In this document: positions 32,517 through 37,313 of the stretch, one piece after another
Layout: each line of letters begins with the position of its first letter
How positions within the stretch are numbered: the stretch's first letter is position 1
Source of the DNA: Butyricimonas faecihominis
GTDB lineage: Bacteria > Bacteroidota > Bacteroidia > Bacteroidales > Marinifilaceae
Reading direction: 5' to 3'
Length of the DNA stretch: 64,000 bases
NCBI RefSeq assembly: GCF_033096445.1
Contig: NZ_AP028155.1
Location: 2,547,880-2,611,879 of the forward strand
Program-made: the position numbers and the translations under genes
The notes under the pieces: generated by a model
Databases searched by the model: none
Told to the model about the DNA's origin: nothing
What the model saw: the letters and a program-made list of their open reading frames with translations, nothing else

Positions 32517-32708
32517 TTATTCTTCCGCTTGTTGCAAAGATTGACGATAGGCGGCCTTCATCCGGGCCATTCTATTTCTAATAGACGGTTTGGTGAAAGC
32601 CTGACGATCTCTCAGCTCTTTAATCACGCCGGTTTTTTCGAATTTTCTTTTGAATTTCTTCAGTGCTCTCTCGATATTTTCGCCTTCTTTTAATGGTACA
32701 ATTATCAT
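32517..32708 (-). CDS. rpsU: Ribosomal protein bS21
   Basis: 63 residues: MIIVPLKEGENIERALKKFKRKFEKTG with a basic helical tail. In Bacteroidia bS21 helps hide the anti-Shine-Dalgarno of 16S rRNA (published for Flavobacterium). The ATG here has no purine-rich Shine-Dalgarno in the 20 bases before it. The mRNA leader is about 165 nt and contains a terminator-like hairpin at 32747-32777. Confidence 0.97.
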   Translation of the reverse strand: MIIVPLKEGENIERALKKFKRKFEKTGVIKELRDRQAFTKPSIRNRMARMKAAYRQSLQQAEE

Positions 32709-32911: not shown

Positions 32912-32955
32912 TAAAATTTCGTTTTTAGCGTTCTGAAGTACAAGCGGGAAGAAAT

Positions 32956-32985
32956 GAAACCGCCTCAAGGAAAAGAGGCGGTTTC
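32956..32985 (-). terminator. 11-bp perfect hairpin, probable terminator
   Basis: GAAACCGCCTC (32956-32966) pairs with GAGGCGGTTTC (32975-32985) across an 8-base loop. On the minus strand it is followed by ATTTCTT, a weak U-tract. On the plus strand no U-tract follows. Confidence 0.55.
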
Positions 32986-33063
32986 AGGGATGGACTTAAA
33001 ACGAGAAGGAGTTAACAGATTCTCTCGCCGTTAAGTATCCAACCTATCAATTCTATTTTTAAA

Positions 33064-33137
33064 GGAAACAGCCGGGTGGGATTCAAACTACTAACGTGAG
33101 AAGATGAACGTGGCTCCCCTGTGCGTTTCCGGCTGCT
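33064..33137 (-). ncRNA. Structured segment with two mutually exclusive helices
   Basis: Helix A pairs 33064-33070 with 33124-33130 (GGAAACG / TGTTTCC on the minus strand, 7 bp including one G-U). Helix B pairs 33067-33075 with 33129-33137 (AGCAGCCGG / CCGGCTGTT, 9 bp including one G-U). They share bases and cannot form together. No open reading frame explains the segment. Strand is assigned from the neighbouring minus-strand promoter and is not certain. Confidence 0.35.
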
Positions 33138-33157
33138 TTCTTGTTAGCACCGGAATT

Positions 33158-33404
33158 AAAAAAATCCGGCGCTATATTTTAGCAATCCGGAAGATTTAAA
33201 AATCGGACCGGGCTGCTCTTCGTAACGGAGGTCTAGCAAACCTATAGAGACGAAAAGCAAGCCTCGACCCGACTATATATATTACTATACGTAATCGAGT
33301 ACGAAGGCGTTGCAATCACCGTGCTCTATATAGAAGTTGCTAGTTTCCGTTCACAGTGCATAATTGCACGCTATCAATAAAAACCGAACGTGTTGCGTTC
33401 TGTT
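33158..33404 (-). ncRNA. Candidate structured non-coding RNA of unknown class (about 247 nt)
   Basis: No reading frame fits here, but the minus strand has a promoter just upstream and a terminator at the end. The terminator is TCCGG / CCGGA plus GCTA / TAGC, then seven U (33191-33158). Between them the RNA can fold into CGCTA / TAGCG enclosing GAACG / CGTTC, then hairpin GTGCA-ATTA-TGCAC, then a rod spanning 33224-33351 built from AACGGA / TCCGTT, CTAGCAA / TTGCTAG, TATAGAG / CTCTATA, GCAA / TTGC, GCC / GGC and ACTCGA / TCGGGT. I could not match it to RNase P RNA, tmRNA or SRP RNA. 6S RNA is encoded elsewhere in the window. Confidence 0.6.
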
Positions 33405-33408
33405 AGCG

Positions 33409-33440
33409 CAAAGATGATAAATAATTATCTCATAAACAAA
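33409..33440 (-). promoter_or_regulatory. Promoter of the candidate RNA
   Basis: On the minus strand TTTG (33440-33437), a 20-bp spacer and CATCTTTG (33416-33409). The -33 box is perfect and the -7 box has one mismatch. Predicted start is near 33403. Confidence 0.65.
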
Positions 33441-33618
33441 AAAGCACTAAACTATTTTTCAAGTTTTCGACAAAATAGTACAATCTTCACTTATTACTTT
33501 ATAATAACAGTGAAAGCTGGATCAATTATATAACCATAATCTTTATTCTCAACTTTCACTAATTCAAATTACAAGGCAAAAATAAAGCTATCAAGGATAT
33601 TTTTCACCACAAATAAAT

Positions 33619-33626
33619 TATCTTTG
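33619..33626 (+). promoter_or_regulatory. Candidate -7 element before the alpha-CTD-like gene
   Basis: TATCTTTG, a perfect TAnnTTTG match, 22 bp before the ATG. No clear -33 TTTG at the expected distance. Confidence 0.5.
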
Positions 33627-33648
33627 CATCCAATAAATACACAACATC

Positions 33649-33975
33649 ATGGAAAAGGATAAAATCAACAGACTTATCAAGATTCTAAACGAGGCTAAAG
33701 AAATAATTGCAGAATTGGAAGGATACGCAACCAAAAAGGAGAAACAAGCCAAAACAATAGAACAAATACTGGCAACAAACATTCGGGAGTTTGGATTTAG
33801 CACAAGGGCTATGAGTGTTTTATTGATGGCAGAGATAAAAACAGTGAAAGACATAACAAAATACACCAAATACGAAATACAAAACTTACGCTCCTGCGGG
33901 CGTGTATCAGCAAACGAGATTGAAGCGAAGCTAAACGCAGTAGGAATAAAATTGGCACAAGAAGAAGAGGATTAA
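33649..33975 (+). CDS. Small protein with an RNA polymerase alpha-CTD-like domain
   Basis: 108 residues. The first 45 are rich in Lys/Glu and look like a coiled coil (INRLIKILNEAKEIIAELEG). Residues 45-103 resemble the alpha subunit C-terminal domain: IREFGFSTRAMSVLLMAEIKTVKDI corresponds to the alpha-CTD N-terminal helix region, and LRSCGRVSANEIEAKLNAVGI to its helix-hairpin-helix. The alpha-CTD binds promoter DNA and activators. A free-standing copy could act as a DNA-binding or polymerase-modulating protein, but that is inference. It lies alone between the candidate RNA and an empty stretch. Confidence 0.7.
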   Translation: MEKDKINRLIKILNEAKEIIAELEGYATKKEKQAKTIEQILATNIREFGFSTRAMSVLLMAEIKTVKDITKYTKYEIQNLRSCGRVSANEIEAKLNAVGIKLAQEEED

Positions 33976-34414
33976 TCCAATCTATACCATCACAAGATGG
34001 GAGAGGGAACTCGCTCGCCGCTGCCCCCCCTTCTCATAGACTTCGCTTTCCTTACCTGCCCAACAAGTCTATTTTTCCAGATAGCTAATATACTACACCA
34101 CACACTCAAATTACAAATACAATCGTCTCAAAAATCAATTTTATCGAAGATGAATGCAAGAAGAATGCAGGATGAATGCTCCGTGGTCTAAATGAACTAT
34201 CAGCAAACAATCAAGAGAAGCATAGATTGACATAGTTTAAAGACAGTGTAATACCAGACTTTTACCAAAGTAATAATCTCCTCACGCCCTTCCAACTCCC
34301 TTCCATCGCCCTTTCATAACCCATTCCCAATAAGCGAGCAACGAAGTGAAGAGCTGGATGAAAGAATCACGCAAGATTATTACTCCGGTACTTCAAGAGA
34401 ATTACGGTGATAAA
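33976..34414. other. Gene-free stretch with 11-bp-spaced GAATGC repeats
   Basis: 439 bp without a believable gene. Three copies of GAATGC begin at 34152, 34163 and 34174, an exact 11-bp period. The only short reading frame here (33997-34191) has no family resemblance and low-complexity sequence. Confidence 0.5.
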
Positions 34415-37041: not shown

Positions 37042-37072
37042 AAAAGAAAGAGTTCTTTGAAAAGGAAATAGA

Positions 37073-37258
37073 TATACCCGCATTATTTCGTATTTAACTG
37101 GAAAACTCAACACTTAACCAATTAGAGTGAAGCTTAGTTAGCCAAAGACAGGCCTCAACCCTTCGGGGTTCCTTCGGGACGGTGGAAGTTTGAATCTGAC
37201 GGCAGCTCTACCCGTGTCTAACAGGGGTTTTTTAAAGAAGAAATGATGCGGGTTTTTT
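37073..37258 (+). ncRNA. ssrS: 6S RNA
   Basis: The end sequences 37076-37089 and 37240-37253 form a 14-bp helix with one G-U pair, followed by six U, which serves as both closing stem and terminator. The enclosed about 150 nt can form an interrupted rod with AACCC-TTCG-GGGTT near the middle. Length (about 180 nt), rod shape and location between zapA and rny fit 6S RNA, which binds housekeeping RNA polymerase as a promoter mimic. Exact 5' and 3' ends are estimates. Confidence 0.78.
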
Positions 37259-37313
37259 GTATAAACAAAAAACACCAAAATATATTATATAACTATAAAT
37301 TCAAGTTACGAAT

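Follow-up and report, generated by a model that had tools for sequence, protein, structure and literature searches.

An RNA beside rpsU in Butyricimonas faecihominis belongs to a multi-copy Bacteroidota RNA family of probable leader type

Introduction

What is the RNA that the minus strand next to rpsU appears to encode in Butyricimonas faecihominis, and do its neighbours reveal what it does? The window, that is, the whole stretch of 64,000 nucleotides analysed here, comes from a genome consisting of a single 4.85-Mb contig and contains a gap of 940 bp between rpsU (start at 32708) and the next ORF (at 33649). A first-pass annotation of this DNA had rightly noted the gap, had placed in it an unassigned structured RNA with promoter-like and terminator-like ends, and had proposed, given the neighbouring rpsU and alpha-CTD-like genes, that it might be a polymerase- or ribosome-related RNA. 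Judged from comparisons of sequence, the RNA (hereafter the window copy) is a member of a Bacteroidota-wide RNA family whose typical members have their own TAnnTTTG promoter.

Results

The RNA in the rpsU gap and its parts

As the annotation described, the minus strand carries TTTG (33440-33437), N20 and then CATCTTTG (33416-33409). The strict TAnnTTTG is absent from the window copy; CATCTTTG has 5/6 of its set letters and lies 37-44 nt upstream of the family core, with the TTTG 20 nt upstream of it. The 256 nt at 33405-33150 have a predicted fold of -87.4 kcal/mol, against a mean of -61.0 in 200 shuffles (z -5.66), none of which was equally good. The rod helices that the annotation had named are present in the predicted folds, the minimum-energy fold leaving one A of AACGGA unpaired, and the strands of two of them, GCAA/TTGC and ACTCGA/TCGGGT, are alternatively able to pair in the helices P1 and P4. 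The two-part stem with seven U (33191-33158) could be recognised by reading, and one compensatory change in a second copy of the RNA (copy 2) was read in it; a simple terminator scan of 2 kb listed five other sites and not this one. The parts of the window copy are as follows.

33437..33440, minus strand: TTTG at -33, Bacteroidetes-type promoter (sequence)
33409..33416, minus strand: -7 box CATCTTTG, 5/6 set letters of TAnnTTTG (sequence)
33386..33400, minus strand: terminator-like 5' hairpin GAACG-CAACA-CGTTC (terminator scan; kept in copy 2 and G003)
33365..33372, minus strand: P1 5' strand AGCGTGCA, pairing with TTGCAACGC (one bulge) or in a hairpin GTGCA/TGCAC (by reading)
33307..33315, minus strand: P1 3' strand TTGCAACGC (by reading; P1 shown in the wider family)
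33346..33351, minus strand: P2 outer 5' strand AACGGA, rod (compensatory changes)
33224..33229, minus strand: P2 outer 3' strand TCCGTT, rod (compensatory changes)
33337..33343, minus strand: P2 inner 5' strand CTAGCAA, rod (compensatory changes)
33233..33239, minus strand: P2 inner 3' strand TTGCTAG, rod (compensatory changes)
33324..33330, minus strand: P2 innermost 5' strand TATAGAG (compensatory changes)
33243..33249, minus strand: P2 innermost 3' strand CTCTATA (compensatory changes)
33267..33300, minus strand: P3 apical hairpin (compensatory changes)
33262..33272, minus strand: P4 5' strand TCGGGTCGAGG (by reading, in the register of G001/G002; P4 shown in the wider family)
33198..33212, minus strand: P4 3' strand CCCGGTCCGA and U5 (by reading; U-tract shown in the wider family)
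33158..33191, minus strand: second terminator, TCCGG/CCGGA around GCTA/TAGC, U7 (by reading)
33220..33372, minus strand: family core, 105.9 bits (covariance model R3)
33510..33559, minus strand: relic of the lipoprotein frame found before copy 2, 3' end (sequence match)
32935..34054, no strand: segment between rpsU and the TPR gene without a counterpart in genome G004, which has 71 bp (blastn)

In the window copy, the P4 pairing reads TCGGGTCGaGG/CCcGGTCCGA followed by U5, in the same register as the longer P4 of G001 and G002; its P1 strands are complementary by reading, and P1 is invariant among its four nearest copies. Further hairpins lie 3' of the RNA (33060-33140 and 32955-32986), one of them a CCGG stem with a large loop, and large-loop CCGG hairpins of a similar kind occur at the G001, G002, G003 and L058 loci. 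Elsewhere in the window, a 96-bp stretch (34114-34209) recurs, inverted and 85% identical, at L005 7563-7658; it is probably an interspersed repeat, because a similar stretch is also found in the corresponding gap of G004.

The RNA is unassigned in Rfam as well. Covariance searches against Rfam 15, including Bacteroidales-1, placed no family at gathering score on the element, either in the window or at two sets of 20 further family loci, and when 8 of the first 20 loci and 6 of the second 20 were scanned at E up to 1, the matches lay beside the element and none on it. When 1.6 kb of the gap region was scanned at E up to 10, 12 sub-threshold matches were obtained; the best of them, an rnk-leader match at 32949-33052, downstream of the RNA, reached 32 bits against a cut-off of 55 and was judged to be due to chance. 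In the window as a whole the scan yielded three tRNAs at cut-off and nothing else, so that no Rfam family reaches its gathering score at 37042-37313, the stretch that the annotation had called 6S RNA.

A second copy, close relatives and the origin of the window copy

Copy 2 is located in the same genome (443553-444078); its identity to the window copy is 88% across 526 bases, rising to 91% in the central 401. Among the 61 predicted pairs of the rod, six are changed on both sides in copy 2, three are changed on one side and still paired, and none is broken. A model of these two copies (R1), searched in 56 genomes of the taxonomic family, found matches in two further genomes, the congeners G001 (E 6.5e-4) and G002 (0.04), whose copies have an extra side arm. 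In the alignment of the four Butyricimonas copies, from which this arm and some apical-loop bases were trimmed, 191 of 192 cells are paired (slid controls, 31-44%), nine pairs are changed two-sided, and two-sided cells number 15 against 5.9 in shuffles. Because compensatory changes appear both in the comparison with copy 2 and in this alignment, the helices named by the annotation are supported beyond chance, through copies located elsewhere. The reading of the minus strand is borne out likewise, 26 of the 192 cells being G-U and none A-C. Furthermore, the two-sided change in column 27 is confined to copy 2 and that in column 49 to the window copy, and these copy-specific changes suggest that each of the two copies kept the fold after their separation.

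In copy 2, G001 and G002 the RNA follows a small lipoprotein-like frame. Genome G003 has the same frame and site, and there the rod is absent. An insertion of the rod, which this absence might have indicated, was dropped as an explanation, since G001, G002 and the wider family carry the rod; loss in G003 is likelier than insertion elsewhere. In G002 the frame closes a series encoding TonB/SusC-like, SusD, fasciclin and lipoprotein products (Pfam), and the series in G001 and G003 are alike by sequence. The frame preceding copy 2 is fused to an ORF6N domain; the copies in G001 and G002 adjoin an ORF6N gene, with a tyrosine recombinase gene beside it in G002. At L005 6014-6616, the C-terminal part of the lipoprotein carries an in-frame ORF6N fusion, which has the family RNA L143 before it and copy 2 behind. 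G003 also has a family member (C1:1753983-1754111) upstream of the SusC-like operon that bears the rod-less copy at its 3' end, no more than about 1 kb away.

The interval from rpsU to the TPR gene includes, in the window, 1,120 bp in place of which G004 has 71 bp. No copy of the RNA was found in the rpsU gap of five congeners, either by blastn or among the model R3 matches of their genomes; conservation in homologous gaps, on which the annotation had made its reading depend, is thus lacking for the position, and it is at other sites that the RNA is conserved. The relic at 33510-33559, together with these RNA-free gaps, leads us to conclude that the window copy probably came to the rpsU gap from another site, bringing part of its former surroundings along. 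If so, the neighbouring genes are no guide to its function, and it seems to be by accident that it lies next to rpsU and the alpha-CTD gene. The proposal of a polymerase- or ribosome-related RNA is therefore not supported: five congeners have no RNA in the gap from which it was drawn, the 1,120 bp are extra relative to G004, and about 15 other members in the window's genome are next to unrelated genes. The alpha-CTD-like gene itself (33649-33975, 108 aa, Pfam PF03118) is inside the segment missing from G004. In 21 genomes its other matches are only weak (21-31% identity) and fall inside frames of 331-357 aa, which we take as rpoA, and the idea that RNA and gene form one unit was dropped on these grounds.

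Models and spread of the family

Model R2, made from the four copies including the window copy, gave 17 further matches (E < 0.03) in six Butyricimonas genomes and matches at E up to 0.1 in five other genomes among 393, and these can be aligned from the promoter through the start codon. Model R3 was made from 21 R2 matches with the window copy excluded from training, and it recovers the window copy at 105.9 bits (E 7.8e-22); since its training rows were found by R2, which contains the window copy, this is a reciprocal and not a fully independent test of membership. At E up to 0.001, the six Butyricimonas genomes have at least 15, 13, 10, 10, 10 and 14 copies, lower bounds obtained with 150 candidates scored per genome. 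Within the order, 139 of 393 genomes had matches at E up to 0.01, no more than seven being scored per genome. In a sample of 395 genomes from the whole phylum, 26 had matches at E up to 0.001, and 22 of the 26 lie outside the order.

DNA similarity was also detected in plasmid records of Bacteroides ovatus, Parabacteroides distasonis, Phocaeicola massiliensis (two) and B. finegoldii, and the three of these that were compared with R3 all match it at 60-68 bits; an unannotated 6.1-kb record labelled as phage matches at 79 bits. Searches of plasmids and phages with the window RNA gave no match, nor did two sequence patterns run against viral contigs, and a pattern scan of genome contigs had its sole match in B. 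synergistica, in a scan that may leave out records near the window's genome.

For comparisons across the family we used 99 loci. This set excludes L107, L108, L128 and L129 (cut at a contig end or with an irregular flank), the weak L100, L135 (identical to L134), L145 (the opposite strand of L137) and many matches whose DNA was not included. L134 and L135 (G000 154297 and 2615659) are identical in RNA and flanking frames and 2.5 Mb apart, one of the two lying 3.8 kb past the right end of the window, and in G032 two members (C8:72528-72690 and 72897-73054) are on one strand about 200 nt apart.

A pseudoknotted fold

The alignment A7 comprises 33 sequences selected from the 99 as alignable long forms. 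Its 54 pairs in nine helices are 90.6% paired (79.1% in shuffles), and 219 cells, in 32 of the 54 pairs, are changed two-sided, against 67.7 in shuffles, none of 500 shuffles being as good. The long loops of two hairpins, P1 and P4, pair with each other and form P2, the rod, with a small hairpin, P3 (82.9% paired), between them. The fold of the family is pseudoknotted, because P2 crosses P1 and P4. The counts for P2 and P3 are favoured by the way in which the rows were found, the search models having held both as pairs. Additional support comes from P1 and P4, because they were absent as pairs from these models: they are 97.4 and 88.3% (P1) and 94.3 and 93.4% (P4) paired, and both sides are changed in 4 of the 14 pairs of P1 and 7 of the 14 of P4. 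Across the family, G-U cells outnumber A-C cells by 119 to 31.

P4 is followed by a U-tract of 7-10 T in 12, against a background of 30% T. The strand just before the 3' arm of P4 is complementary to a stretch past the U-tract, and this helix, P5, has at least six of seven pairs in 32 of the 33 sequences (shuffled mean 6.9, maximum 16). When the P5 strands are dealt among the sequences, 22.8 of 33 still have six or more pairs, and covariation is mixed, two measures falling within the shuffles (139 and 67 of 500). With weaker support, the P5 stretch past the U-tract may lie within the loop of a final hairpin, P6, which has five or more pairs around the P5 3' strand in 25 of 33 sequences against 15.7 in shuffles; dealt arms give 21.4 (maximum 27), and there was no clear covariation among these 33 sequences.

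Promoter, spacing and neighbouring genes

TAnnTTTG is located 40-100 nt upstream of the core in 70 of the 99 loci. Ten control windows, most of which fall within upstream genes, contain it at 1-6 of 96-99 loci each, and shuffles of the same stretches have a mean of 5.0 (maximum 11). On the other side, counting same-strand ATG frames of at least 60 codons, which are frames and not annotated genes, an ORF starts 30-200 nt behind the core in 77 of 99 loci, against 17 of 99 on the mirror side. Random same-strand positions in these loci often meet an ORF start (550 of 1332 tries), so that the telling result is the tight peak, with the start codon lying 70-89 nt past the core at 59 of the 99 loci. 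Three plasmid records with annotation agree, their same-strand CDS beginning 82, 86 and 69 nt behind the core. At the other 22 loci, to which all four of the window subfamily belong, the expected place lacks an ORF; for the window copy (L087) no same-strand ORF start was found within 200 nt behind the core.

The genes behind the RNA are a mixed set, often encoding exported proteins and some of them in mobile elements. Pfam was run on 61 of 76 downstream proteins, the 15 omitted being mostly short or doubtful frames, and returned eight RibD_C, three LRR_5 and two each of BACON, beta-barrel, lipocalin-like and Bor, with no shared pathway apparent among the 61. By a crude test, 44 of the 76 have an export-type N-terminus, against 49 of 214 other frames. 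Upstream, a protein of 349-351 aa occurs in eight loci (DUF3871 in the one scanned) and a RadC-like protein at several (one scanned). In two annotated records RteC, primase/helicase and topoisomerase flank the element, surroundings that we take to be those of CTnDOT-type elements. DUF805-type cis-regulatory RNAs lie near two members (L182 2289-2354; L101 295-329, below the cut-off).

Discussion

In the parts of the open literature that we consulted, including PMC2864571, PMC8040213, PMC11109978, PMC7366714 and PMC10994844, no description of this family was found, and it is apparently a new, unnamed class among structured leader RNAs. A set of 3161 candidate structured RNAs has been reported (PMC8040213), among which an earlier anonymous listing is possible. 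The family resembles riboswitches and terminator-type attenuators in its conserved fold, its terminator-like helix with a U-tract, the gene at a fixed distance and the many copies before unrelated genes; it differs from riboswitches in that no ligand is known, no Rfam match reaches gathering score on the element at the loci scanned and no shared downstream pathway is apparent. The phylum has further candidate structured RNAs, Bacteroidales-1 (RF01693) and other Bacteroidetes motifs (Weinberg et al. 2010, PMC2864571), but none of those with an Rfam number, a group to which Bacteroides-2 does not belong, falls on the element at the loci scanned. At L093, L187, L188 and L190, the family member is followed by a dihydrofolate reductase-family (RibD_C) gene and, directly after this, by the small RNA RteR (RF04181), known from CTnDOT (PMC7366714); RteR is nevertheless a distinct RNA, with a model of 84 positions, on the opposite strand and without overlap.

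Based on the fold, the spacing and the strand, all of which were established by comparison, a typical member is probably a 5' leader, an attenuator; termination, and switching in response to a signal, are inferred. The leader would fold during its synthesis, P2 and P4 setting up an intrinsic terminator at the U-tract of P4, and P5, which would compete for part of a P4 strand, would belong to the read-through form, so that the RNA would gate read-through into the gene behind. The mutual exclusivity of P4 and P5 is partial, and P5 is not a classical upstream antiterminator, because it extends beyond the U-tract. We consider it rather probable that the window copy is a paralogue within such a family of pseudoknotted, gene-gating leaders, namely a moved orphan that keeps the fold, and that with its three nearest relatives it forms an orphan subfamily without a gene behind. 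This subfamily may have a role in trans or a residual function. A bolder version, in which the leaders, with their paired hairpin loops and a pairing that extends past the terminator, form a phylum-wide class that senses signals and gates accessory and surface-protein genes, among them cargo of mobile elements, and in which gene-less members may act in trans, for instance as decoys for what the leaders bind, is tentative and would on present evidence more probably be wrong than right.

The gene-less copies also lend themselves to a different explanation, that the window RNA is a stand-alone small RNA that ends at its own terminators and acts in trans on other RNAs or a protein, the position of other members before genes being secondary. 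The window copy, copy 2 and the copies in G001 and G002 lack an ORF start within 200 nt, and these orphans have, by reading, an extra terminator and yet show compensatory changes (columns 27 and 49). However, 77 of 99 family loci do have an ORF behind the RNA, 59 of them at the tight distance, and we regard this explanation as unlikely, if by no means far-fetched. Much less credit can be given to a leader-peptide attenuator, in which ribosomes on a short ORF at CATGCTT would choose between P4 and P5. By a simple pattern, the joint of P1 and P3 has CATG at 38 of the 99 loci, and at several of these the reading is MLA(I/V)Y, but 17 have CACG and 44 do not match the pattern, the reading lacks a shared end and varies in length from four codons up to 40, the limit of the test, and the window copy has no ATG at this joint; with neither start nor length conserved across the 99 loci, this mechanism is not supported.

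The diversity of the genes behind a conserved element, as well as the ORF6N gene adjoining the copies in G001 and G002, which in G002 has a tyrosine recombinase gene as its neighbour, would also fit a DNA element, folded as a single strand for a recombinase (attC-like or a transposon end) and spreading cargo genes. This is slightly less probable still, as the strand-specific G-U pairs, the fixed spacing of promoter and start codon and the interlocked helices argue against it. Least probable of all is a second RNA-polymerase-binding RNA of the 6S type. A long imperfect rod with a promoter-like box recalls 6S RNA, including 6S-flavo (RF01685), which has a rod-like stem and likewise comes from Bacteroidetes; but no 6S family was matched at cut-off in the window, nor in the gap even when E values as high as 10 were admitted, and the topology, with its pseudoknotted core, the copy number and the leader position are different.

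Under the leader reading, members of the family usually stand directly in front of accessory genes of gut bacteria and may govern whether these are expressed. If this is true, a common phylum of gut bacteria would use a large, multi-copy and so far unnamed leader RNA before genes for exported proteins and genes of mobile elements, and the family would be a strong candidate for an orphan riboswitch or attenuator, which the many paralogues per genome make testable through leader swaps in reporters.
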